From Desulfobacula sp. (GTDB taxonomy: Bacteria > Desulfobacterota > Desulfobacteria > Desulfobacterales > Desulfobacteraceae): a stretch of DNA of 41,430 nt. The notes under the pieces were generated by a model that saw nothing but the letters and a program-made list of their open reading frames with translations, did no database searches and was not told the DNA's origin. Location: positions 1 through 41,430 of the forward strand of contig VMSR01000305.1 in NCBI GenBank assembly GCA_013792075.1, read 5' to 3'. Shown one piece after another: positions 1,830-41,205 of the stretch. The stretch's first letter is position 1. Each line of letters starts with the position of its first letter. Both the position numbers and the translations under genes were made by a program.

Positions 1830-3579
1830 ACTCTTTTTTAATGGCCGGGTCCTTTTCCATGTCATACAATCGTTCAAAGGAACCCCTGGCATGGGGGGTG
1901 GAAGACAGCACCATTTCCGCATGGTCTTTGTAGAGACTGACCAGAAGGGGCACGGTAAATCCCACCAGGGCGTCGTTCAATCTTGTCATAAAAGAACGTC
2001 TGCCGTTGGCCGTTGGATACAAAAAACTTTTTGCCATCATGTAAAATGCGTTTTTAAAGGTGTGCCGTGTTTGTCCGACATGGTTGATGGTCTCAAATGC
2101 CATGTGCAGCAGAACAAGGGGGCTTTTTTTCACAGACGCATTGGGGATTCGGTTGCCTTCGGTCAAATCACAGACAACAAGGGCAATCAGATAATCCATG
2201 GTGCCGTTTTTGCCGAACAGATAGGTCTTGTTTTTCTGGGTTGCTATAAAATCCCTGGACCCCGGAAGATCGGACAGGGGCGTAGCCTGTACCCCGATAT
2301 GGTGTTCCACACAAAACCGCCCGTAATCATGGCCAGTGTTGTCATGGATGGAATTAAAATAGTCATGGGGAAGCCCCAGGATAAATGATCCGTGGATGGT
2401 CATCCCATGGCGCTGAATTTTCTTGATGCGCTCGGAATAATAGTCGGCCACACTTTTACCGCTCGCCTCAATATCCTTGGCCACATTTTTCCCGATCAGC
2501 TTCAGGTCTCTCAGGTCCAGGGACTCGAACCCGATAAACAGGTGGGAGGCACCGGAAAGGCGCATTTTTTTCAACAGCCGGTCATTGTCCGCCACCTCAA
2601 TGGAAACCTGGACCATATAGTTTATTTTTGTTTTCCGGGCCAGCAGCAGGTCCAGTAGCGCTTCCAGGTGCTTACCGCCTATAATAATATTATCTGCCAA
2701 AAAGAAAAAAGGCCGGGTTTTCAGGTTTATCCCCTGCCGTTGGATATGGTCTATCTCGTTAATAATGTCTTCCGGGGTTCGTATGGTAAACTGCCGAAGA
2801 TCTCTGGGCAGGCTGGAAATGGAACAAAAACTGCAGGAATAGGGGCATCCCAGATAGGGGGCTGTGGGGTTCACCCGGATTTTGTCTGCCAGGATATTAC
2901 CGACAAGGGGCAGGCGCCGCAACCGATTCATCTTCATGGGCGGCATAAATTCAATGTTTTCATGCCCCCAGACCCTGTCCTCGACCATTTTATAGCCGGT
3001 ATAGGAAGGCTTCAGGGTGCCCTTGTTTAAATCTTTGATCACCCGCCCCATCACATCCGTGTCAGCCCCGCCCCGGACATGACAAACAAGTTTTGGATTC
3101 GGTACCTGCTGTTTGATAAACAGATCCACATCCTGAGGGCTTGACGAGACATGGATGCCCCCCAGCACCACCGGAATTCTGCCATGATTCAAGGCGATAC
3201 TGGTGCAGACGGCCGTTGGGAAATTTGAACTCATGGACGAAATAAACACACCGGCCGGTTTTCCGTTTTTCAGGATAATATCCTTGAGTCCGGTCCGAAT
3301 GCCGTCGGACAGAATCACCCGTGCCTTTGGAGCAAATTTTGCCACCTGATTGGCCACATAAATGATGGCGTAGCTTTCGATGGCAAAGGTCTCCACCATT
3401 CCCAACTTTTCTTTTCTCTTGTCAAACTCAAGATACTCCAGATAATTGCCCCGGTTCAATTTTGCGGTGTTTTTGTTGGTAATATCGGATAATAGATCCA
3501 GGGGGGTTTTACAGTTACCAATGCTTTCCATCAGATTGTATGTCACCGGATTATAAACGATATAATATCTGTTTCCCAT
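1795..3579 (-). CDS. B12-binding-like / radical SAM protein, copy B
   Basis: Second radical-SAM protein, 594 residues when started at the ATG at 3579. An upstream in-frame ATG at 3606 would add nine residues, but the 3579 start aligns with the start of copy A and has AAGGGTG just upstream. The iron-sulfur motif is C245, C249 and C252 (GCPYSCSFCSIS, nearly identical to copy A). Blocks such as HVRGG, RVWGH, GNIL and the SGASHLFIGFESLDLRDL stretch align with copy A from end to end, so the two are paralogues. As in copy A the N-terminal part resembles a B12-binding domain without a visible DxHxxG motif. The convergent arrangement with a 35 bp coding overlap is unusual for a pair of duplicates. 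Substrate and pathway are unknown. Confidence 0.88.
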   Translation of the reverse strand: MGNRYYIVYNPVTYNLMESIGNCKTPLDLLSDITNKNTAKLNRGNYLEYLEFDKRKEKLGMVETFAIESYAIIYVANQVAKFAPKARVILSDGIRTGLKDIILKNGKPAGVFISSMSSNFPTAVCTSIALNHGRIPVVLGGIHVSSSPQDVDLFIKQQVPNPKLVCHVRGGADTDVMGRVIKDLNKGTLKPSYTGYKMVEDRVWGHENIEFMPPMKMNRLRRLPLVGNILADKIRVNPTAPYLGCPYSCSFCSISSLPRDLRQFTIRTPEDIINEIDHIQRQGINLKTRPFFFLADNIIIGGKHLEALLDLLLARKTKINYMVQVSIEVADNDRLLKKMRLSGASHLFIGFESLDLRDLKLIGKNVAKDIEASGKSVADYYSERIKKIQRHGMTIHGSFILGLPHDYFNSIHDNTGHDYGRFCVEHHIGVQATPLSDLPGSRDFIATQKNKTYLFGKNGTMDYLIALVVCDLTEGNRIPNASVKKSPLVLLHMAFETINHVGQTRHTFKNAFYMMAKSFLYPTANGRRSFMTRLNDALVGFTVPLLVSLYKDHAEMVLSSTPHARGSFERLYDMEKDPAIKKEFRAYVKGFFHR

Positions 3580-22647: not shown

Positions 22648-24285
22648 TTATGTCTCTATCTGTTCAGGGAAGGCCATGGCCGCAATAAACCGATCTTCAA
22701 ATTCAGGGTCTCCGCCCAGCTCCAGAACCGCAATGGTCCGGGACAATGCCAGGGCCCGATCTGCAATTTTCGGGTCCACAAGCCCCATGACGGCACCGGT
22801 GACGACCAGCCCGGGGGCGACCCTCACCCTGCCGGTCAGAACAACTTTTGGCAGCATGCCCATGGCCACGGCCTTGGTATAATCAAATCCGGCACCAAAG
22901 GCGCCTGTCAGAAGGGTCTGATCAATATGGTCTGCGCCGGACCGGAGAAGCAGCAGCTCAATTCCGGCACATAGGGCCGCCTTGGCAAGCTGCACCTCTC
23001 CGATATCTTTCTGGGACAATACCAGGGCCCGGCCATGCCGGGTGTCAATGGGGGCAACCAGCTCAACCCAAAGGGTGTTGTCGGTTTTGGTCACCCGAAA
23101 AGCGCCTGGGTCCAGCAGACCGCTTGGGGACAAAAGATTTGCCCGGCGCAACCCGGCCACGGCATCAACAATACCCGAGCCGCAGAGGCCTGCTGGTTTG
23201 ATCCCCCCTTGGGAGCCGATCACATGCCAGACAAACTTTCCAGATTCAGGATCCATGTCCATCCGGTCTATGGCACCTTCCATGGCCGGCATGCCGCAGG
23301 AAATCCGGGCCCCTTCAAAGGCAGGCCCTGTGGCGCAACTTACGGCAAAAAACCGGTTCCTGTGACAGAGTACCAGCTCTCCGTTGGTTCCGATATCAAC
23401 GAGCAGACAGGTTTGATCCCGGTCAAAATTCCAGGCCATGAGGGCGCTTATGGTATCCCCCCCGATAAACCCGGAAACCGCAGGGAACAAATACACCGGG
23501 ACCTTCGGGTCCAGGTCCAGGCCCAGTGTCCCGGCCGTATGCACCGGCAGATCGGTTATAACCGGCTGATAGGGATATCTGCCCAAAGAACCGGGGTCTA
23601 TTCCTGCAAGAATAAGGGTCATGGCTGTATTCCCGGCCAGTGCCACCCGGGCAACGGCATTTGCCTTAATTTTGCCGGCCTTAAGGCAGGCGGACAACAG
23701 CCGGTTGATCGTCCGGACGGCCAAACCCTGGAGTTTTGCAAGCCCTATTTCGGGATTTTGCGCTGCAGCAATGCGGCTGACAACATCATCGCCATGGCAG
23801 GTCTGTGCATTTTTACCACTGGCCGATACCAGGGGAGTGCCGTCGTCAAGATCGCAGAGGATAAGGTCAACGCTGGTTGTTCCCAGATCAATGGCCACCC
23901 CCACCCTGCCGCGCCGGTGCCGGCCCCCGGACACGGTGACCCGGCATCCCGCCTGACCTAGGTCCTCCTCCGGCAGGCAGACAGCCATGGTCTGGGACCG
24001 GCTTGACCGCACCTGGCAGGCCAGGCGAACCCCTGTTTTCATTTCCAGGTCCGTCAAAAGAACCCTTTCGGCATCCGTGGGCAGGGACAGGCTGGCACCC
24101 GGCGGCACCTGAACCCGGCACTGGCCGCAGGTGCCGGTCCCTGCACAATCTGCCCGGACCCCATGCCCGGCTTCAGCCAATGCGGATGAAAGGATCTGTC
24201 CCTTTTCCAGACAAAGGGTCCTGGAAAGCGCCGAAACTTTCGGACAGGGCCCGTCCTTCTCCGGTTTCTTTTTAATTTTTTCCAT
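22648..24285 (-). CDS. Corrinoid-protein reductive activator (2Fe-2S plus ASKHA ATPase)
   Basis: A 545-residue protein of the RACo / DUF4445 type that uses ATP to return inactive Co(II) corrinoid protein to the active Co(I) form. The N-terminal ferredoxin domain binds a plant-type [2Fe-2S] cluster with C47, C53, C56 and C90 (CAGTGTCGQC). The ASKHA nucleotide-binding fold begins at about 127 with VGVAIDLGTTSVDLILCDL, and further phosphate and adenosine motifs follow (LLVDIGTNGELVL, LLTGAFGAGFDY). Two bases separate it from the methyltransferase gene upstream. Every corrinoid demethylase system needs such an activator, so its presence here supports the reading of the operon. Confidence 0.9.
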   Translation of the reverse strand: MEKIKKKPEKDGPCPKVSALSRTLCLEKGQILSSALAEAGHGVRADCAGTGTCGQCRVQVPPGASLSLPTDAERVLLTDLEMKTGVRLACQVRSSRSQTMAVCLPEEDLGQAGCRVTVSGGRHRRGRVGVAIDLGTTSVDLILCDLDDGTPLVSASGKNAQTCHGDDVVSRIAAAQNPEIGLAKLQGLAVRTINRLLSACLKAGKIKANAVARVALAGNTAMTLILAGIDPGSLGRYPYQPVITDLPVHTAGTLGLDLDPKVPVYLFPAVSGFIGGDTISALMAWNFDRDQTCLLVDIGTNGELVLCHRNRFFAVSCATGPAFEGARISCGMPAMEGAIDRMDMDPESGKFVWHVIGSQGGIKPAGLCGSGIVDAVAGLRRANLLSPSGLLDPGAFRVTKTDNTLWVELVAPIDTRHGRALVLSQKDIGEVQLAKAALCAGIELLLLRSGADHIDQTLLTGAFGAGFDYTKAVAMGMLPKVVLTGRVRVAPGLVVTGAVMGLVDPKIADRALALSRTIAVLELGGDPEFEDRFIAAMAFPEQIET

Positions 24286-24287
24286 TT

Positions 24288-25091
24288 TTACACCAGAATT
24301 CTACCGGCAGTAACCTTGTCCATGAACGCCAGGCAATAGTCATCCTGGCCCATGAGCATGCGGGTGGTGTGAAGGGCCGCCAAAAGTTCCCGGTCCAGGG
24401 GATCAAAAAGTGCGCCATCCAGCCCCCGGGCCATCATCAGGGCCAGAAAGGTGCGGTTGATAATCCGCCGGGCAGGCAGACCAAAGGAGATATTGGACAG
24501 ACCGCAAAGGGTTTTCACACCAGGCAGGCGCTTTTTTATGGCAGCCACCGCCGCAAGGGCCATGGACCCGTTTCTGGTGTCAACACTTACCGGGGCCACC
24601 AGGGGATCTATCCATATGGCCTCCGGGCGGACACCGATCCCCGTCAGTCCGTTGACCAATTGTTCGGCCCGGTTACAGATCTGATCCACTGTTTGCGGCA
24701 TCCCCGTATCATCCATACACAGGGCAACCACCTGGCAGTCCCGTCCTTTTAACAGGTCCAGCATGCGCCCAAAACGGTTTTTTTCAAGGGTGATCGAGTT
24801 GATCATGGGCGGCCTGTCCACGATGTCCAAGGCAGATTCGAGCACGCCGGGGTCCGGGCTGTCGATGCACAAGGGAACCCTTGCCACGGCCTGCACGGTT
24901 TTGATCAGCCATTGCATATCCTGGTGCTCGGTTTGAACCCCGGTGCCGGTGTTGACATCAATATACCCGGCCCCGCTCTCCTCCTGAAGCCTCACAAGCT
25001 TCTGAAGGGACTTGGCGTCCCTCTGGGCCACCGCAGTCCGAACCGTGTTCCGTGTGGTGTTGATCAATTCTCCGATAATGGTAAATGGCAT
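24288..25091 (-). CDS. Tetrahydrofolate:corrinoid methyltransferase (pterin-binding family)
   Basis: A 267-residue pterin-binding (dihydropteroate-synthase fold) protein of the MeTr / MtvA / AcsE type. Family blocks: IGELINTTRNTV at 5-16, DVNTGTG, the aspartate of CIDSPDPGVLESAL, NSITLE, and GLSNISFGLPARRIIN. The likely job is to move the methyl group from the methylated corrinoid protein to tetrahydrofolate. The ATG at 25091 is preceded by AAAGGAT; a longer frame to 25226 lies inside the transporter gene and is rejected. Four bases separate it from the MFS gene upstream. Confidence 0.9.
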   Translation of the reverse strand: MPFTIIGELINTTRNTVRTAVAQRDAKSLQKLVRLQEESGAGYIDVNTGTGVQTEHQDMQWLIKTVQAVARVPLCIDSPDPGVLESALDIVDRPPMINSITLEKNRFGRMLDLLKGRDCQVVALCMDDTGMPQTVDQICNRAEQLVNGLTGIGVRPEAIWIDPLVAPVSVDTRNGSMALAAVAAIKKRLPGVKTLCGLSNISFGLPARRIINRTFLALMMARGLDGALFDPLDRELLAALHTTRMLMGQDDYCLAFMDKVTAGRILV

Positions 25092-25095
25092 AAAT

Positions 25096-26421
25096 TTATC
25101 CTTTGGGTAAAATGGACACTTGGGGTGCCGGTTCAATAAGGTCCGCACTGGCCTGTTCCACTGCAGCCAGATCCTTGACATAAAATTTAGATCCTGCCCA
25201 AAACAACAGGCCGCCCACCAGGGCAAACACCGGCAGTTGGGTCATGGCAAATTCAAGGCCAAAACGATCGGACAAGGCACCGATGAACAAAGGCCCCAGG
25301 GCACTGCCCAGAAGGTGCTGAACGATCACGTTGACACTCAGGGATGTGGCCCGCAGCCCGGGATGGACGACATCCTGGGTCACAGCAACTGCAGCCGGCA
25401 CAAAGGCCACGGCAAACACACCGGCAGTCAGCAGGATCATGTATTGAATCTGGCCCCTGAAAAATGCAAAGGCAATAAAGAGAAGCACGGCCGTAATAGC
25501 CGAGGACACGGCCGGAAACACCATGCGGGCATTGGGCCGTCGCTTCATCCACAGGTCTGCCAGATAACCACCCAAAGGCGCCCCGATAATGGCCAAAAGC
25601 ATCACAGACCCGCCCTTGATTCCGGCACGGCTCATGGTCAGCCCCTCAAACCGGTGAAAATAGGTCGGCAGCCAGGTCAGAAGAGAGGTGGTAACAAATA
25701 CATTGGCGGCAAACCCGAGATTGGTGAACAGAAGGGTGGGGTTGTGGGTAAACTGCCGGGCCATGTCGGCAAACCGCATCTTCACCTGCACTTTCCCCTG
25801 GCCCTGGTCCACGGTTTTGACCAGGGCAGTGGTTTTATAATCCTTTACCGTGAAAAACAAAAGGGCGATTATCATGCCGGGCAGGGCCACAATTCCCAGG
25901 GCATAGCGCCAACCGAAGTGCTCGGCGATTATGCCCCCGATGGCGATGCCCAGGGCGCTGCCCAGAGGGATGGAGGCATTCCACAACCCCAGAATCCTGG
26001 CCCGCTGTTCTTTTGGAAAAACAGTGGATATCATGGCCGTCCCCCCGGGGGCATAACCGGCCTCTCCGATTCCGATGGCCGTTCGGGCTGCGAACAGCTG
26101 CCCGAAATTTCGGGTAAAGGCACAGGCCAGGGTGGCCAGGCTCCACAGAACCGCCATCAAACCGATACTTTTTTTACGGCTCCAGCGGTCCACCAGTATG
26201 GACACAGGAAAAGAAAACACCAATATGGACCAGGAGACGGCGGAAACCAGCAGTCCGCACTGGGTATCGGTGATCCCCCAGTCTGCCTTGAGATAGGGAA
26301 ACAAGGATACAATGACCATCCGGTCCATGTAGTCGAACAGGTACAAAAGAAACAAAAGGGCAAACAGATACCGCCGGTAGGACGGTGTTGGCATGGTTTC
26401 CACGGCTGAAAAGTTTTTCAT
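25096..26421 (-). CDS. MFS transporter, probable uptake of the methylated substrate
   Basis: A 441-residue major facilitator with twelve predicted membrane segments. Typical motifs are visible: DYMDRMVIVSLFPYLKADWGI after helix 1, the loop 2-3 motif DRWSRKKSIGLMAVLWS at about 87-103, and GIGEAGYAPGG in helix 5. The sequence style is that of the anion:cation symporter / spinster-like MFS groups that move organic acids. It sits between the two methyltransferase genes, so it probably brings in the methyl donor, for example a methoxylated aromatic acid. The substrate is inferred from context only. Confidence 0.88.
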   Translation of the reverse strand: MKNFSAVETMPTPSYRRYLFALLFLLYLFDYMDRMVIVSLFPYLKADWGITDTQCGLLVSAVSWSILVFSFPVSILVDRWSRKKSIGLMAVLWSLATLACAFTRNFGQLFAARTAIGIGEAGYAPGGTAMISTVFPKEQRARILGLWNASIPLGSALGIAIGGIIAEHFGWRYALGIVALPGMIIALLFFTVKDYKTTALVKTVDQGQGKVQVKMRFADMARQFTHNPTLLFTNLGFAANVFVTTSLLTWLPTYFHRFEGLTMSRAGIKGGSVMLLAIIGAPLGGYLADLWMKRRPNARMVFPAVSSAITAVLLFIAFAFFRGQIQYMILLTAGVFAVAFVPAAVAVTQDVVHPGLRATSLSVNVIVQHLLGSALGPLFIGALSDRFGLEFAMTQLPVFALVGGLLFWAGSKFYVKDLAAVEQASADLIEPAPQVSILPKG

Positions 26422-26450
26422 GGCGCATCTCGCATTAAAAGGTAAGACCC

Positions 26451-27539
26451 TTATGGGGTATCGTAGAGGCCATATTTACGGGTGGCCTCGAACATGGCAA
26501 TGCAATTTTCCGGGTTCACCCCGGGGTGCAGGGAATTGGAAGAACAAATGATCAGCCCACCCCCCTTGCCGCCGTCCTGGATAGCTGTCCGAACGGCCTC
26601 ATCCACCTGTCCGCAAGTCCCGTTGGGCAACAGATCGATACAATCGATATTGCCCAAAAGGCAGATGCGGTCACCGCAGTATGCCTTCACCCGGGCCATG
26701 TCCATTCCCGCCTGGGGCTCCAAGGGGTTCAGCCCGTCGTAACCGCTGTCCAGGAGGATGTCCAGGAGAGGCCAGAGGTTGCCGTCGCTGTGGCGAACCA
26801 CCTTGAGTCCTTTTTTATGGGCAGCCTCAACAATTTGCCGGTTGTAAAAATTGACAAATTCCAGAAACTGGTCCGGTGCAATCAACGGAAAATTTTTATC
26901 GGCAATGTCATCCTCGATCACCAATACGTCCAGGCCGGCTTCCACCAGAAGGTCGAGTTGAGCCAGATTGTAATCCAGGGTCATGCGGGCCACCTGGTGA
27001 ACAAATTGGGGATCATCGAACATCTTGAGCATCAGGTTCTCCATCCCCATGAGCCGCCAGCAGCGCACAAAGGTTCCCCGCATGAGCCAGAAGAGTGCCT
27101 TTTCCCCCTTGAAACGGTCCCGGGCAAGGTCCAGCAGCAGCAGATGCCCCCGGTCCGGAACAGGCGGCGTATAACGGGTAAGATCCTGGGGTTCTTTAAT
27201 GGGATGGCCCTTGGCAACGGGCAGGCCGAAGTCCGAAAGGGCATAGGTCACACCGAACTCATCCTGGACATGACCATCGTCCAGATTGATTTCATGGCCA
27301 ATTTCAAATGCCGTGAAACCGTCCACTCCGTAAGTTTCATGAATGAGAAACAGGGTGTCCAGCACCTTGAATTTTTCGCTGTCGGTCATCTTGCGAAAAT
27401 CTTTCACCCCGGGCAGGCCATCGGTGATATGGCGGCCGATCCCGATGATGGGGGCTTCATTGATCCCATGGATATACAGGGGCACCCGGTCTGCCTGTTT
27501 TACGGCCAGGGCTGTCAGAATACGCTGTTTTCCGTTCAT
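26451..27539 (-). CDS. UroD-family methyltransferase, substrate:corrinoid step (MT-I)
   Basis: A 362-residue protein of the uroporphyrinogen-decarboxylase fold as used by MtaA- and O-demethylase-type methyltransferases. It begins MNGKQRILTALAVKQADRVPLY, a hallmark of the family. The usual zinc motif HxC is absent; the corresponding segment reads HSDGN (H250). Cysteines that could still bind zinc are C300 (GNIDC), C332 (IICSSN) and C346 (NPENC). The ATG overlaps the corrinoid-protein stop as ATGA, so the two proteins are translationally coupled, as expected for a methyltransferase and its corrinoid partner. It probably takes the methyl from the substrate to the corrinoid. Confidence 0.88.
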   Translation of the reverse strand: MNGKQRILTALAVKQADRVPLYIHGINEAPIIGIGRHITDGLPGVKDFRKMTDSEKFKVLDTLFLIHETYGVDGFTAFEIGHEINLDDGHVQDEFGVTYALSDFGLPVAKGHPIKEPQDLTRYTPPVPDRGHLLLLDLARDRFKGEKALFWLMRGTFVRCWRLMGMENLMLKMFDDPQFVHQVARMTLDYNLAQLDLLVEAGLDVLVIEDDIADKNFPLIAPDQFLEFVNFYNRQIVEAAHKKGLKVVRHSDGNLWPLLDILLDSGYDGLNPLEPQAGMDMARVKAYCGDRICLLGNIDCIDLLPNGTCGQVDEAVRTAIQDGGKGGGLIICSSNSLHPGVNPENCIAMFEATRKYGLYDTP

Positions 27540-28180
27540 CTTGCCTCCTTTTGGCTGGCCACAAGCTCCATTGCCAGGAGGGCTGCCGTTGCGGCATCGG
27601 CACCATAGGCATCTGCACCGATGCTGTCGGCAAATTCCCTAGTAACCGCTCCGCCGCCCACCATGATCTTGATGTTTTTGCGCAGCCCTGCCCGTTCCAG
27701 GGCCTCGATGGTCTCCCCCATAAAGGGTGCGGTGGTGGATAAAAGGGCGCTCATGGCTACAATTTGAATGGTTTCATCCACAGCAGCCACAAATTTTTCC
27801 GGTTCCGCATCAATCCCCACATCAATCACCTCAAACCCCTTGCCTTCCAGCATTGTGGATACAAGGTTTTTTCCGATATCGTGGTGATCGCCCCGGACGG
27901 TACCCAGCACCACCCGGCCGGCCCTGGCATTGCCGTTTCCCGCCAGCAATGGTTTTAAGATGTCCAGGGCGGCATGCATGGCCCTTGCCGCCAGCAGCAT
28001 GTGGGGAATGTAGATCTGGCCTGCCTGGAATTTCTGCCCCACCACATCCATACCGGCAATCAATCCCTGGTTGAGCACCTCTTCCGGTGTCATGCCTGCG
28101 TCAAACGCCTGTCCGATCAAGTCGGCGATTTGTTTGACGTCTCCTTTTTGCAGTGTTTCCAATATCCGATTGAGTACCAT
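27536..28180 (-). CDS. Corrinoid protein of a methyltransfer system
   Basis: A 214-residue MtaC/MtbC/MtvC-type cobalamin carrier. Residues 1-88 form the four-helix cap domain (EEVLNQGLIAGMDVVGQKFQAGQIYIPHMLLAARAM). The Rossmann-like B12 domain follows with the cobalt-ligand motif DHHDIG at 98-103 (ligand H100) and the conserved MSALLSTT and MVGGGAVT segments that hold the nucleotide tail. First gene of the operon 28180-22003. It would shuttle the methyl group between the UroD-type and the pterin-binding methyltransferases. Confidence 0.93.
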   Translation of the reverse strand: MVLNRILETLQKGDVKQIADLIGQAFDAGMTPEEVLNQGLIAGMDVVGQKFQAGQIYIPHMLLAARAMHAALDILKPLLAGNGNARAGRVVLGTVRGDHHDIGKNLVSTMLEGKGFEVIDVGIDAEPEKFVAAVDETIQIVAMSALLSTTAPFMGETIEALERAGLRKNIKIMVGGGAVTREFADSIGADAYGADAATAALLAMELVASQKEAR

Positions 28181-28331: not shown

Positions 28332-28350
28332 CATATGCGAAACGCATATG
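28332..28350. promoter_or_regulatory. Perfect palindrome upstream of the three-domain fusion gene
   Basis: CATATGCG, AAA, CGCATATG: 8-base arms that match exactly, 72 bases before the fusion gene start. It lies just downstream of a possible TATAGT -10 box (about 28318-28323). It could be an operator or a leader hairpin. No regulator gene is adjacent apart from the TetR of the divergent operon, whose own operator looks different. Confidence 0.5.
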
Positions 28351-28421
28351 TTCTATTCCGTTTTCTTGAATTATCCGGCACTCACGCCAGTTTCAAACCC
28401 ACACCCACAAGGAGGACACAA

Positions 28422-31043
28422 ATGGATATCCAGTACAAACTGCTGAAAACCACCCGGGAAAAAATCGCACTTTATCAATTTCGCAAACAGGTTTTTGTTG
28501 ATGAGGAAAACCGATTTGCATTTTCTTCCGACCAGATTACAGATCCCTATGACAGCATTGAAGAGACACTCAATATCGGGGCCATGGACGGCGACCAGAT
28601 CATTGCCGCCCTCCGCGTAACCCTGGACAACCCAATGGGACTGCCCGCAGACCGGCACTGGGATTTTACCGAAATTAAAAACCAGCTGACCGGTGGCTGG
28701 GCATGTTTCAGCTGGCTGTGCTCTGCCAGTCGCCATAGGCATAAAAAAGGATTGATCAAAGACCTTGCCCGTTATGCTGTCTTTGAGATGCAGAAAAAAG
28801 GATTTGAGCATGTTCTGGCCGTGGTGCACCCACCGATTTATGATCTGCTCCACGAGTGCTTTGGCGTCAGGAAAATAGGCCCCCTTTTTTTGGATAAAAA
28901 ACTGAATGTCCACATGATCCCGATCCATGTTTCCGTCAATGATATTCTGGGACACCTGAATGCGGAACGCTTCCAGAAACCGTCCGGACAATCACCCGAA
29001 ACACCCCCGCAAAAAATACTGACAGATCCTGCTCATCGCCTGAAAGCTTTGGGATTCCAAGGGAAATTTCAGTATCTTGAAGCGGCCTTTTCACGGAATA
29101 TCGGAATCGTTTCCCTGGCGGACCAGGAGAAGCTCATGGGGTCACGAATTGCCATCCCGGGATTGGGCGGCGTCGGAGGACAGCATTTGATAACCCTCGC
29201 ACGGGCAGGTGTCGGCAGCTTCAATATTGCCGATTTTGATTGTTTTGAACCGGTGAATATCAACCGCCAGTATGGCGCAAAGACCAGTTCCTTAGAACAA
29301 AAAAAAATTGAGGTCATGTATAAAGAGGCCATGGATATCAATCCGTTTCTGGATATCAACTGCTTTGCCGAGGGCATTTCCCCACAGAACATAGACCGGT
29401 TTTTAACCGATGTGGACCTGGTGGCAGACGGGATGGACTTTTTTAATTTTGATATCCGTCGAATGATATTTAAGCGGGCCTGTGAGAAAAAAATACCCGT
29501 CATCACGGCGGGCCCATTGGGATTCAGTTCTGCCCTGCTGATTTTTATGCCCGAAGAAGGAATGACCTTTGATCAATATTTTGATATTACAGATCGGCTG
29601 AGTCTGGAAGATAAATTGATCCGGTTCTTCATCGGCCTGGCCCCCAAGGCGACCCAGGCATCCTATATTGATCCGGCTGCCATAAGCCTGGAAAATCAAA
29701 AAGGGCCCTCCGCAGGCGCGGGTTGCCAGGTCTGCAGCGCGGTGGTCACTGTCGAAGCCATCCGAATTTTGTTGAATAAAAAAGGAATAAAACCAGCCCC
29801 GTATTATTTTCAATATGATTTGTTTACCCGAAAATTTCACCAGGGATATCTTTTCAAAGGCAACCGCAATCCCTTTCAGAGAATCAAATACAAACTGGTG
29901 AAAAATCGATTAAAAAAGAGCCGGCAAACAGGTGTCCTGCCGCCAAAAGTTGTTCCGGGTAATGGCATTGCATCCAATGGGACCATTGCCAATGATATCA
30001 TCGGCTATATCATTGCGGCCGGGTGCCGGGCACCGTCGGGAGACAATTGCCAGCCCTGGACTTTTGAATATTGCGCCCCGTATCTGAAAATTTTTCTTGA
30101 TCCCCTGGCGGACACTTCCTTTTTTAACCTGAACCAGGTTGCCTCCCATATTGCCTGCGGTGCAGCCATTGAAAACTGTCTGCTGGCCGCATCCAGATAT
30201 GGCCTCTCGGGCAGGATCGCGTATCTGCCCGATGAAAAACAGCCGAACCTTGTGGCCCAAATTTGTTTATCCCATACGAACCAAGGGGAAGATGCACTTC
30301 AACGGTTTATCTGGGAACGCCATACAAACCGAACCCGGTTCAAAAAAAGTTTTCTGGCACAAACTGAGGTTGAACAGATCCATACAAGCCTGTCCTTGTT
30401 TCCCGGGGTCTCCCTTGTCCTGGTCACCCAAAAAAACGCCCTGGAACAGGTGGCAAAACTGGTACAGGCTGTGGATATCATCCGGTGCCAGCGCAGGGAT
30501 TTGCACGAACACCTGATGGAAATGATTTGCTTTACAAATGAACAGACCCTGGAAAGAAAACAAGGGTTTCCCCTCAAGAATCTGGAAGCGGGCATCGGTG
30601 GTGAAATGTTCCTGAAACTGTGTCGTTCCTGGCCTATGATGCATCTGGCCAACCAACTGGGTATGGGAAAAATCGTTTCCGCTGTGGCCGCCAGGGGAAT
30701 CAGACAGGCATCTGCCGTGGGACTGCTCAAAATCAACGGGAGTTCACAAAAAGATTTCTTAACGGGCGGACAGGCACTTGAAAGACTGTGGCTGTCCTGT
30801 ACGCGCCTGGGGCTTTCCTTCCAGCCCATGACCGCTGTCACCCTGTTCCGGTACCGGTGGGCGCTTGACCAAAAAAATGATTTCTCCCTGGCCCACCAAC
30901 AGCTTTTGGGAGGGATCTGGCCCTTATACGACGACTTGTTTGATGTCGCAACAGGAGAAACCCATATTCTCCTGTTCAGGCTGGGACAAGGCGGAAACAT
31001 GTCCTGCCGGACCCTGAGAAAAGAAAACGCCGCAACTTCTTAG
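28422..31043 (+). CDS. Three-domain fusion: acyltransferase-like, E1/ThiF-like, nitroreductase-like
   Basis: An 873-residue fusion that I cannot assign to a known pathway. Residues 1-185 resemble a GNAT / autoinducer-synthase-like acyltransferase (KIALYQFRKQVFVDEENRF at 14-32; RHKKGLIKDLARYAVFEMQKKG at 107-128). Residues 215-480 are an E1/ThiF fold: GLGGVGG at 247-253, the acidic ADFD at 270-273 and NINRQ at 279-283 that bind ATP and the acyl-adenylate. A CxxC (C435, C438) is present, but I see no clear catalytic cysteine. Residues 520-873 look like a divergent nitroreductase (GCRAPSGDNCQPWTF at 534-548, IACGAAIENCLLAA at 577-590). An E1 plus nitroreductase fusion recalls the uncharacterised mycobacterial protein Rv1355c; the added acyltransferase is the odd part. 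The start has a strong AAGGAGGACACAA. It stands alone, divergent from the corrinoid operon. Confidence 0.78.
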   Translation: MDIQYKLLKTTREKIALYQFRKQVFVDEENRFAFSSDQITDPYDSIEETLNIGAMDGDQIIAALRVTLDNPMGLPADRHWDFTEIKNQLTGGWACFSWLCSASRHRHKKGLIKDLARYAVFEMQKKGFEHVLAVVHPPIYDLLHECFGVRKIGPLFLDKKLNVHMIPIHVSVNDILGHLNAERFQKPSGQSPETPPQKILTDPAHRLKALGFQGKFQYLEAAFSRNIGIVSLADQEKLMGSRIAIPGLGGVGGQHLITLARAGVGSFNIADFDCFEPVNINRQYGAKTSSLEQKKIEVMYKEAMDINPFLDINCFAEGISPQNIDRFLTDVDLVADGMDFFNFDIRRMIFKRACEKKIPVITAGPLGFSSALLIFMPEEGMTFDQYFDITDRLSLEDKLIRFFIGLAPKATQASYIDPAAISLENQKGPSAGAGCQVCSAVVTVEAIRILLNKKGIKPAPYYFQYDLFTRKFHQGYLFKGNRNPFQRIKYKLVKNRLKKSRQTGVLPPKVVPGNGIASNGTIANDIIGYIIAAGCRAPSGDNCQPWTFEYCAPYLKIFLDPLADTSFFNLNQVASHIACGAAIENCLLAASRYGLSGRIAYLPDEKQPNLVAQICLSHTNQGEDALQRFIWERHTNRTRFKKSFLAQTEVEQIHTSLSLFPGVSLVLVTQKNALEQVAKLVQAVDIIRCQRRDLHEHLMEMICFTNEQTLERKQGFPLKNLEAGIGGEMFLKLCRSWPMMHLANQLGMGKIVSAVAARGIRQASAVGLLKINGSSQKDFLTGGQALERLWLSCTRLGLSFQPMTAVTLFRYRWALDQKNDFSLAHQQLLGGIWPLYDDLFDVATGETHILLFRLGQGGNMSCRTLRKENAATS

Positions 31044-33328: not shown

Positions 33329-33357
33329 TTGACTTTTTTTTTACTCACCCGTAATGA
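33329..33357 (+). promoter_or_regulatory. Promoter of the receptor-side cobalamin riboswitch
   Basis: TTGACT at 33329-33334, 17 bases, TAATGA at 33352-33357. The start would be near 33364, at the first base of the riboswitch. The -35 box is the same as that of the second cobalamin riboswitch on the minus strand. Confidence 0.6.
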
Positions 33358-33365
33358 TATTGCCT

Positions 33366-33524
33366 GTTCAGGTGCTCGTTGTTAGAGCTTGAAAGGGAAC
33401 CACGTTAGAGTCGTGGACGGGCCCATCGCTGTAATTGGGGATGAAAGCTGCAGTATGCCACTGACCGATGGTCGGGAAGGTGCAGCCGGTAAAATGATCC
33501 AAAAGTCAGAAGACCTGCCTGGAC
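33366..33524 (+). ncRNA. Cobalamin riboswitch upstream of the TonB-dependent receptor
   Basis: The B12-box region is recognisable: GCCACTGACC (33458-33467), GGGAAGG (33474-33480) and AGTCAGAAGACCTGCC (33504-33519); GGGAACCACG lies near the 5' end and CTGTAATTGGGGATGAAAG at 33429-33447. P1 is GTTCAGG (33366-33372) with CCTGGAC (33518-33524). A terminator-like hairpin follows at 33590-33633. High adenosylcobalamin should switch the receptor gene off. Confidence 0.92.
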
Positions 33525-33589
33525 GATGGCCAAAGGATGATGCCTTGGGGACGAAGGTGTTTCCTGTTATATTCTGAGGATAAAAAGGG

Positions 33590-40944: not shown

Positions 40945-41004
40945 AGCCCTTTGCTTCATCCAAGATCCAAAAACACCCCTTCGTCCTCGAAGGGTGTGCA
41001 ACAT

Positions 41005-41168
41005 TTCAGGTAGGTCTTCTGACTCTTGGATCTTCCTAGTAGCTTTTGCCTTCCCATCAAGTTAATAATTGACAGTGGCGTGAGAAAAGCGTTCGTCCCC
41101 AATTACAGCGGCGGGCCCGTCCCTGATTTTCACAGGTGTTCCCTATTAAGCATTTTCATGCACCTGAA
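41005..41168 (-). ncRNA. Cobalamin riboswitch upstream of the corrinoid import/salvage operon
   Basis: Read on the minus strand: TTCAGGTGC at the 5' end, GGGACGGGCCCGCCGCTGTAA, then CGCCACTG, GATGGGAAGGC and AGTCAGAAGACCTACC. P1 is a perfect 7-bp stem between TTCAGGT (41162-41168) and ACCTGAA (41005-41011). A hairpin at 40973-40997 and the terminator at 40903-40944 follow. The bases ATCCAAGA just before the B12 box (plus 41024-41031) can pair with TCTTGGAT downstream (plus 40958-40965), a possible antiterminator. High cobalamin should switch the operon off. Confidence 0.93.
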
Positions 41169-41176
41169 CTGATATG

Positions 41177-41205
41177 TTCTTAGGTTGAAAAAAAATTAAA
41201 GTCAA
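41177..41205 (-). promoter_or_regulatory. Promoter of the corrinoid import/salvage operon
   Basis: On the minus strand TTGACT (41200-41205), 17 bases, TAAGAA (41177-41182). The start would fall close to 41170, right at the riboswitch 5' end. Confidence 0.55.

Follow-up and report, generated by a model that had tools for sequence, protein, structure and literature searches.

A FeeM–ThiF–nitroreductase fusion in a Desulfobacula genome as a probable single-chain N-acyl-amino-acid oxazolone synthase

What would one polypeptide do with an acyltransferase, an E1-like adenylating enzyme and a nitroreductase in the same chain? The question is raised by an 873-residue protein encoded in contig VMSR01000305.1 of Desulfobacula sp. 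(assembly GCA_013792075.1), of which the whole analyzed stretch of 41,430 nt is called the window here. The initial annotation of this DNA recognized three catalytic folds in the protein and proposed the logic of azoline- or azole-forming peptide modification. The folds are borne out by three matches above Pfam cut-offs, with which the predicted structures agree, and the pairing of E1-like activation with flavin-dependent oxidation is upheld, but conversion of an N-acyl amino acid to an oxazolone is the likelier chemistry. By analogy with characterized enzymes, the window protein is probably a single-chain N-acyl-amino-acid oxazolone synthase with its domains arranged in reaction order, and the fusion most likely represents a more compact version of a lipid pathway that has only recently been described, not a new kind of system. 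On this reading, the three-domain architecture listed in NCBIfam as a hypothetical protein (PRK14852) would gain a concrete chemistry, and the range of oxazolone-type lipids would come to include the Desulfobacterales, in which a desaturase that uses O2 is not expected. With acyltransferase, cyclase and oxidase all encoded by one open reading frame (ORF), the whole pathway would be testable in one tube, and the protein raises the question of whether an unstable intermediate is channeled as a result of the fusion.

The ORF is intact and starts with an ATG at 28422, with AAGGAGG ahead of it at 28409-28415; an alternative longer start, the ATG at 28335, falls within an upstream palindrome. In Pfam, all three domains score above their cut-offs (scores in Table 1): FeeM (PF21926) at residues 17-170 (cut-off 27 bits), ThiF (PF00899) at residues 224-473 (cut-off 28.1) and Nitroreductase (PF00881) at residues 776-811 (cut-off 23.5). 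A full-length AlphaFold2 model built with 63 aligned sequences had a mean predicted local distance difference test score (pLDDT) of 92.8 and a predicted template modeling (TM) score of 0.74. In this predicted structure, the middle part matched AclA (9egb), for which a literature search found no paper, and E. coli ThiF at Z ~27, with MccB and PaaA also among the matches, and the nitroreductase part matched Acg (2ymv) with a root mean square deviation (rmsd) of 2.6. Since the VIA match list of the full model mostly spans residues 214-483, the N-terminus was modeled separately (pLDDT 87.4, 12 sequences). Foldseek (TM 0.78 by query length) and VIA-align (rmsd 2.8, 177 aligned) each ranked FeeM (2g0b) first for this model of residues 1-185; N-acyl homoserine lactone (AHL) synthases (Z up to 17.9) and other GNAT-type acyltransferases ranked below it. 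A sequence search of the PDB with the N-terminal part gave weak matches only (MlaC as the best with an expect value (E) of 0.035, EsaI with E 0.13), and the fold assignment therefore leans on Pfam and the model, both of which agree with the acyltransferase-like character initially ascribed to residues 1-185.

The motifs first noticed in the other two domains, GLGGVGG, ADFD and NINRQ in the E1-like part and RAPSGDNCQPW in the nitroreductase part, are all present, and the motifs of the nucleotide site (88 relatives) and of the flavin mononucleotide (FMN) site (69 relatives) are retained in nearly all relatives (Table 1). D273 and K295 are likewise invariant among the 88 ThiF relatives, and G783 is kept in 68 of the 69 nitroreductase relatives. 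Three intact domains in this order, with conserved motifs and the predicted folds, argue for the oxazolone synthase reading.

The comparison that carries this reading is with the OxzAB, TyzACB and TrzAS systems, which have the same three activities, either as three genes or as an acyltransferase together with a ThiF–nitroreductase protein, and whose products are N-acyl oxazolones (PMC12856293, PMC10404671). The oxazolone synthetase of Pseudoalteromonas rubra, OxzA + OxzB, combines an acyltransferase with a ThiF–flavin oxidase to convert an N-acyl amino acid to an oxazolone, but as two proteins rather than one. In mycobacteria, TrzS is a fusion of ThiF and flavin-dependent oxidase (FDO) domains, whereas the acyltransferase is separate, as it also is in TyzACB, and desaturation is O2-dependent (PMC12856293, PMC10404671). 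TrzS is Rv1355c, a protein that the initial annotation still took as uncharacterized, and TrzA is Rv1356c; TrzS cyclizes first and then desaturates, acid or alcohol opens the ring, and whether fusion explains this obligate reaction order was left undecided by the authors (PMC12856293). The NasY/ThiF/nitroreductase clusters for stieleriacines, thalassotalic acids and kyonggic acids also encode the three activities close together, but as three genes with open-chain N-acyl dehydrotyrosines as the reported products (PMC12479983). Fusions of ThiF and FDO domains and neighboring acyltransferases are thus covered by the literature on oxazolone pathways (among PMC12856293, PMC12479983 and PMC10404671). 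The triple fusion was not found in the surveyed parts of that literature, the original OxzAB report lying outside the survey, and a review of ThiF-like enzymes for ribosomally synthesized and post-translationally modified peptides (RiPPs) contains none of the words nitroreductase, oxazolone and OxzB.

Following these systems, the N-terminal domain, given its FeeM fold, would transfer a fatty acyl group, carried by acyl carrier protein or coenzyme A, onto an amino acid at its amino group; as in the characterized systems, this amino acid may be aromatic. The E1-like domain, with its ThiF motifs and its counterparts OxzB, TyzB and TrzS, would then activate this N-acyl amino acid by adenylating its carboxylate with ATP, and attack by the amide oxygen would close the 5-oxazolone ring. 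The Acg-like flavin domain, in the manner of TyzC and TrzS, would take two hydrogens from C-alpha and C-beta to give an unsaturated acyl-oxazolone, the ring of which water could open to an N-acyl dehydroamino acid.

Relatives were sought in 145 related genomes (the Desulfobacula genome included), in an even sample of 395 genomes of the phylum (again including it) and in a scan of named genomes, for which the best 80 of 169 confirmed stretches were kept; among these 80, the nearest named relatives are metagenome-assembled genomes of Desulfobacterales and Desulfobacteraceae. Matches at E <= 1e-60 were found in 23 of the 145 related genomes and included the FeeM part in five: the window protein itself, two full copies, one with an internal TGA and one ended by a contig edge. 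In the phylum sample, 23 genomes matched at <=1e-40, and among the listed matches only that of the window covered the FeeM part. PF21926 matches were few, occurring in 46 of the 145 related genomes at one to three places each. Domains were mapped and acyltransferase genes called with home-made hidden Markov models at thresholds that we set, and 11 duplicate loci, the same contigs in both genome sets, were removed before counting.

The three parts are encoded as three separate genes (for example L117), as an acyltransferase gene with a ThiF–nitroreductase gene (for example L062, L063 and L066, each pair overlapping by 4 bp) or as a complete triple fusion (the window, L059, L096 and also L090, of 1099 aa); the fusion at L041 is ended by a contig edge. 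At L058:6001-8574 (= L038), a FeeM–ThiF ORF is followed by a separate nitroreductase ORF with one TGA in the aligned frame, a break that may reflect either decay or an assembly error. By homology matches, separate FeeM, ThiF and nitroreductase genes are present at L118 (strain JC645) and L131 (strain JC639), strains named as additional stieleriacine producers by their nasY cluster content (PMC12254169). These three-gene loci of named producers add to the case for an oxazolone synthase.

In a tree of the ThiF–nitroreductase part (53 rows, quick search, with L041 excluded as having no usable ThiF part), the window groups with L058, L059 and L096 (support of 100 by the Shimodaira–Hasegawa-like approximate likelihood ratio test, SH-aLRT). 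The other six rows of the ten-row clade around the window are gene pairs in the order FeeM then ThiF–nitroreductase, three of them overlapping by 4 bp. L090, from Nitratidesulfovibrio liaohensis, is not part of this clade and stands next to a Salidesulfovibrio locus with two genes (support 81). A single clade of all five fused rows was rejected, at a cost of 58.9 log units and a p-value of 0.001 in the approximately unbiased test (p-AU). The FeeM tree (45 rows, FeeM rows below 120 bits excluded) concurs, since window-type FeeMs group with the same gene pairs together with L073 and L092, and the L090 FeeM groups with Desulfovibrio-type FeeMs. To the extent that trees with long branches and a short search, in which L058 was entered by its ThiF part only, can be relied upon, the fusion appears to have arisen at least twice or to have been split repeatedly; either way, the three parts would belong together. 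Both the sister gene pairs and the occurrence of triple fusions in two separate lineages are thus in line with the oxazolone synthase reading.

The initial annotation called three catalytic folds in one chain rare. The architecture is not unique, being shared by L090 and by NCBIfam PRK14852 (NF011425), which L090 matches with 1794 bits. PRK14852 has FeeM, ThiF and nitroreductase in one chain in identical order, and differs in representing a separate fusion lineage with a canonical FeeM. In both trees, L060-L063, L066 and L134 are the rows that come nearest to the window fusion beyond its own clade; they differ from it in having two adjacent genes, one of them encoding ThiF–nitroreductase, and a cyclic nucleotide monophosphate (cNMP)-binding domain after FeeM, absent from the window fusion. 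This C-terminal domain marks a FeeM subclade, being detected by Pfam at L062:4158-5384 (+) and by alignment in the FeeM proteins of L060, L061, L063, L066, L073, L092 and L134; FeeM–cNMP is an unusual combination of acyltransferase and sensor.

The genes beside the relatives also bear on function. Among 48 non-redundant two-domain genes, the fetched stretch held a full FeeM gene in 23 cases, an AHL-synthase-type gene in 18 and one or the other in 33, as expected if the oxazolone synthase reading is right. The AHL-synthase-type gene checked against NCBIfam (n=1), at 2100-2849 (-) of L043, is a TIGR03694 exosortase-system acyltransferase (179.8 bits, cut-off 112). By hand count, 14 of the 15 related genomes that carry a two-domain gene have a TIGR03694 match above cut-off, compared with 18 of the 130 others and none of the five with a triple fusion. 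Also by hand count, the distance between TIGR03694 and the two-domain gene is no more than 3 kb in 12 of 16 cases in the related genomes, a closeness suggesting that TIGR03694 may be an OxzA-like acyltransferase feeding an oxazolone-type pathway. The families recurring near relatives in 90 loci, each named from one representative, are an MMPL exporter (37), a DUF1302/AMIN protein (26), a PEP-CTERM protein (16), a methyltransferase (15) and an FtsX permease (10). The exporter counts in favor of the oxazolone synthase reading, as mmpL9 adjoins tyz in M. tuberculosis (PMC10404671); the representative at L043:2932-5232 (+), of MMPL/HAE3-type RND, parallels it.

Several observations weigh against this assignment. 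Identity of the N-terminal domain to characterized FeeM chains is only 12-14%. The glutamate of the VELG-type motif, which we take to be the catalytic residue of FeeM, is present in 0 of 13 window-clade FeeM rows vs 32 of 32 other FeeM-type rows, and the window protein has C95 at this position. In 15 of the 48 two-domain relatives, the fetched stretch lacks an acyltransferase gene; eight of them have <2 kb on one side and seven >3 kb on both. The MMPL exporter and the other recurring neighbors are absent from the window. Cut-offs of the curated families were missed: the window protein scores 542.5 bits against PRK14852 (cut-off 1337, the best stretch beginning at profile position 299), 818 bits over residues 205-871 against the ThiF–nitroreductase family PRK14851 (cut-off 1170) and 286 bits against NF005901, the Rv1355c (TrzS) family (cut-off 476). 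Finally, the genome carries dsrA above cut-off, vs the O2 need of the characterized desaturases of oxazolone systems (among PMC12856293, PMC12479983 and PMC10404671).

The window protein also missed the cut-off of the NCBIfam Acg family (146 bits, cut-off 199), and passed that of PRK08223 with its ThiF part only (365 bits, cut-off 266). On these sequence scores, it is related to the curated two- and three-domain families but outside them, and given the missed PRK14851, PRK14852 and Rv1355c-family cut-offs, we claim that it works like these proteins, not that it is a TrzS or a PRK14852. Cytochrome bd subunit I is present alongside dsrA, and the host may be a sulfate-reducer-like cell with some possible exposure to O2. 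A bolder picture, which we hold tentatively and find rather doubtful, would be of a one-gene oxazolone-lipid maker in an anaerobic sulfate reducer, with O2-free flavin desaturation to another acceptor, a FeeM subclade independent of the glutamate, and channeling of the ring behind the two fusion lineages.

Other explanations for the same domains have to be weighed. The end product might be an open-chain N-acyl 2,3-dehydroamino acid of the stieleriacine kind, with the oxazolone as a passing intermediate that acidifies C-alpha for the flavin step and is then hydrolyzed. This we consider unlikely, although the report on the Thalassotalea, Massilia and Stieleria clusters, with their ThiF and nitroreductase genes, records no observed oxazolones of these compound families (PMC12479983), and the desaturation by TrzS after cyclization and the opening of its ring fit such a route. 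OxzAB, TyzACB and TrzAS do yield oxazolones (PMC12856293), and no hydrolase common to the fused loci turned up, with no search aimed at one. It is also conceivable in principle that the acyltransferase domain has a structural or regulatory role and that the N-acyl amino acid is supplied elsewhere, for example by a FeeM gene on contig C99 of the same genome, the 425-aa product of which has the better PF21926 score (109 bits); the window FeeM also lacks the glutamate of the other rows. Such a role is quite unlikely, however, as 25 residues of the FeeM part are invariant across 12 window-clade members (R21, F25, E29, D41, D44, E48, N51, R65, W98, H130 and H136 among them), suggesting a working site, and the contig C99 gene sits in what looks like another pathway.

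Oxazolones are electrophiles, and the ThiF domain might instead activate the N-acyl amino acid for another acceptor (an amine, lipid or protein), with the oxazolone as acylating agent and desaturation as a tailoring step. The exosortase-system acyltransferases and PEP-CTERM proteins adjoining two-domain relatives would suit such a transfer, but we judge it very unlikely, the checked recurring families not being common to the fused loci, where the neighbors examined differ, and TIGR03694 having no match in the five fusion-bearing genomes. Azoline or azole formation on a RiPP precursor, which the E1-like and flavin oxidase logic and the MccB and PaaA matches of the ThiF domain might recall, is extremely improbable, as the FeeM domain is part of the same chain and the characterized relatives work on free N-acyl amino acids (PMC12856293, PMC12479983, PMC10404671). 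Nor was a short peptide shared: among peptides of >=15 aa in the 600-bp flanks, the window has none in common with nine relatives, a comparison that leaves possible a lone or distant precursor peptide. Across the 10 loci compared, the window, L058, L059 and L096 had no match, and every match linked members of L060-L063 and L066, the sister loci with two genes, to one another. We therefore retain the single-chain oxazolone synthase as the probable function; the features concerned are collected in Table 1.

Table 1. Features of the fusion gene and its upstream region (window coordinates)
Feature	Position	Strand	Evidence
FeeM–ThiF–nitroreductase fusion gene, 873 aa, stop included	28422..31043	+	intact ORF, AAGGAGG upstream
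FeeM-type N-acyltransferase domain, residues 1-185	28422..28976	+	PF21926 44.2 bits; model closest to FeeM 2g0b, Z 19.2
Linker, residues 186-204	28977..29033	+	low model confidence, pLDDT <50 at 185-200
ThiF/E1-like adenylating cyclase domain, residues 205-500	29034..29921	+	PF00899 159.3 bits; ThiF 1zud/1zfn Z ~27
GLGGVG, nucleotide-binding glycines, residues 247-252	29160..29177	+	G247, G249, G250, G252 in 88/88 relatives
NINRQ, residues 279-283	29256..29270	+	N279, R282, Q283 in 88/88; N281 in 81/88
DGMD, candidate ATP/Mg aspartates, residues 336-339	29427..29438	+	D336 in 87/88; D339 in 79/88, E in 9
Acg-type FMN nitroreductase / flavin-dependent oxidase domain, residues 524-873	29991..31040	+	PF00881 28.2 bits; 2ymv Z 32.4, 300 aligned
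APSGDNCQPW, FMN-site motif, residues 537-546	30030..30059	+	A, P, S, D, N, Q, P, W each in 65-67/69; 2 of the rest are gaps
RHTNR, residues 633-637	30318..30332	+	R633, R637 in 68/69 (1 gap)
QPM, residues 801-803	30822..30830	+	Q801 in 64/69, P802 in 67/69, M803 in 48/69
Palindrome CATATGCGAAACGCATATG, possible operator	28332..28350		genome copy search, upstream search in fused relatives, shuffles

The fusion gene stands alone, as initially described, with a corrinoid protein gene on the opposite strand on its 5´ side and a Tim44-like gene 463 bp away on its 3´ side. With three domains in one ORF, it possibly forms a complete one-gene system, as had also been suggested. Its flanks contain a corrinoid methyltransferase group, the Tim44-like protein, an M48 peptidase and B12-related genes. 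Constant neighbors beside fusions of the same domain order were not seen, as none of the seven recurring families checked occurs in the window or in the L038-L041 or L090 stretches, and the neighbors differ: PhoU, a sensor kinase, a response regulator, an ABC ATPase and an amidohydrolase at L038, a MASE11 kinase at L039, and a class I glutamyl/glutaminyl-type tRNA synthetase at L041.

A palindrome of its own had been noted ahead of the gene; CATATGCGAAACGCATATG is indeed present there, but a search of the 260 bp preceding the genes of the four fused relatives L058, L059, L096 and L041 did not find it. Elsewhere in the genome, there are no copies with 0-1 mismatch and one copy with two mismatches; this copy is on contig C99, flanked by a MatE gene and a Prismane-family gene, and by our own estimate one to three such places would be expected by chance alone. 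An 8-bp arm was attained by 16 of 500 shuffles of the window spacer. Given the shuffle result and the absence of CATATGCGAAACGCATATG upstream of the fused relatives, the palindrome is at most a candidate operator. L058 has an inverted repeat of different sequence, with 10-bp arms and a 7-bp loop, 99 bases upstream (96 for the window palindrome), and the upstream regions of L059, L096 and L041 have arms of 6-7 bp only.

The second FeeM-type gene of the genome, on contig C99 (L140:7863-9140 (-)), lies near genes for an AMP-binding enzyme, an NAD_binding_4 reductase and a CDP-alcohol phosphatidyltransferase, and probably serves a different N-acyl amino acid pathway. In the window, 22648-28180 (-) encodes a row of corrinoid protein, URO-D-type methyltransferase, MFS transporter, pterin-binding protein and RACo-type activator, which is probably a corrinoid demethylase system. 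Two cobalamin riboswitches (Rfam), neither near the fusion gene, are found at 33353-33536 (+) and 40992-41182 (-), with a TonB receptor gene and a CbiZ/periplasmic-binding protein gene downstream of them.

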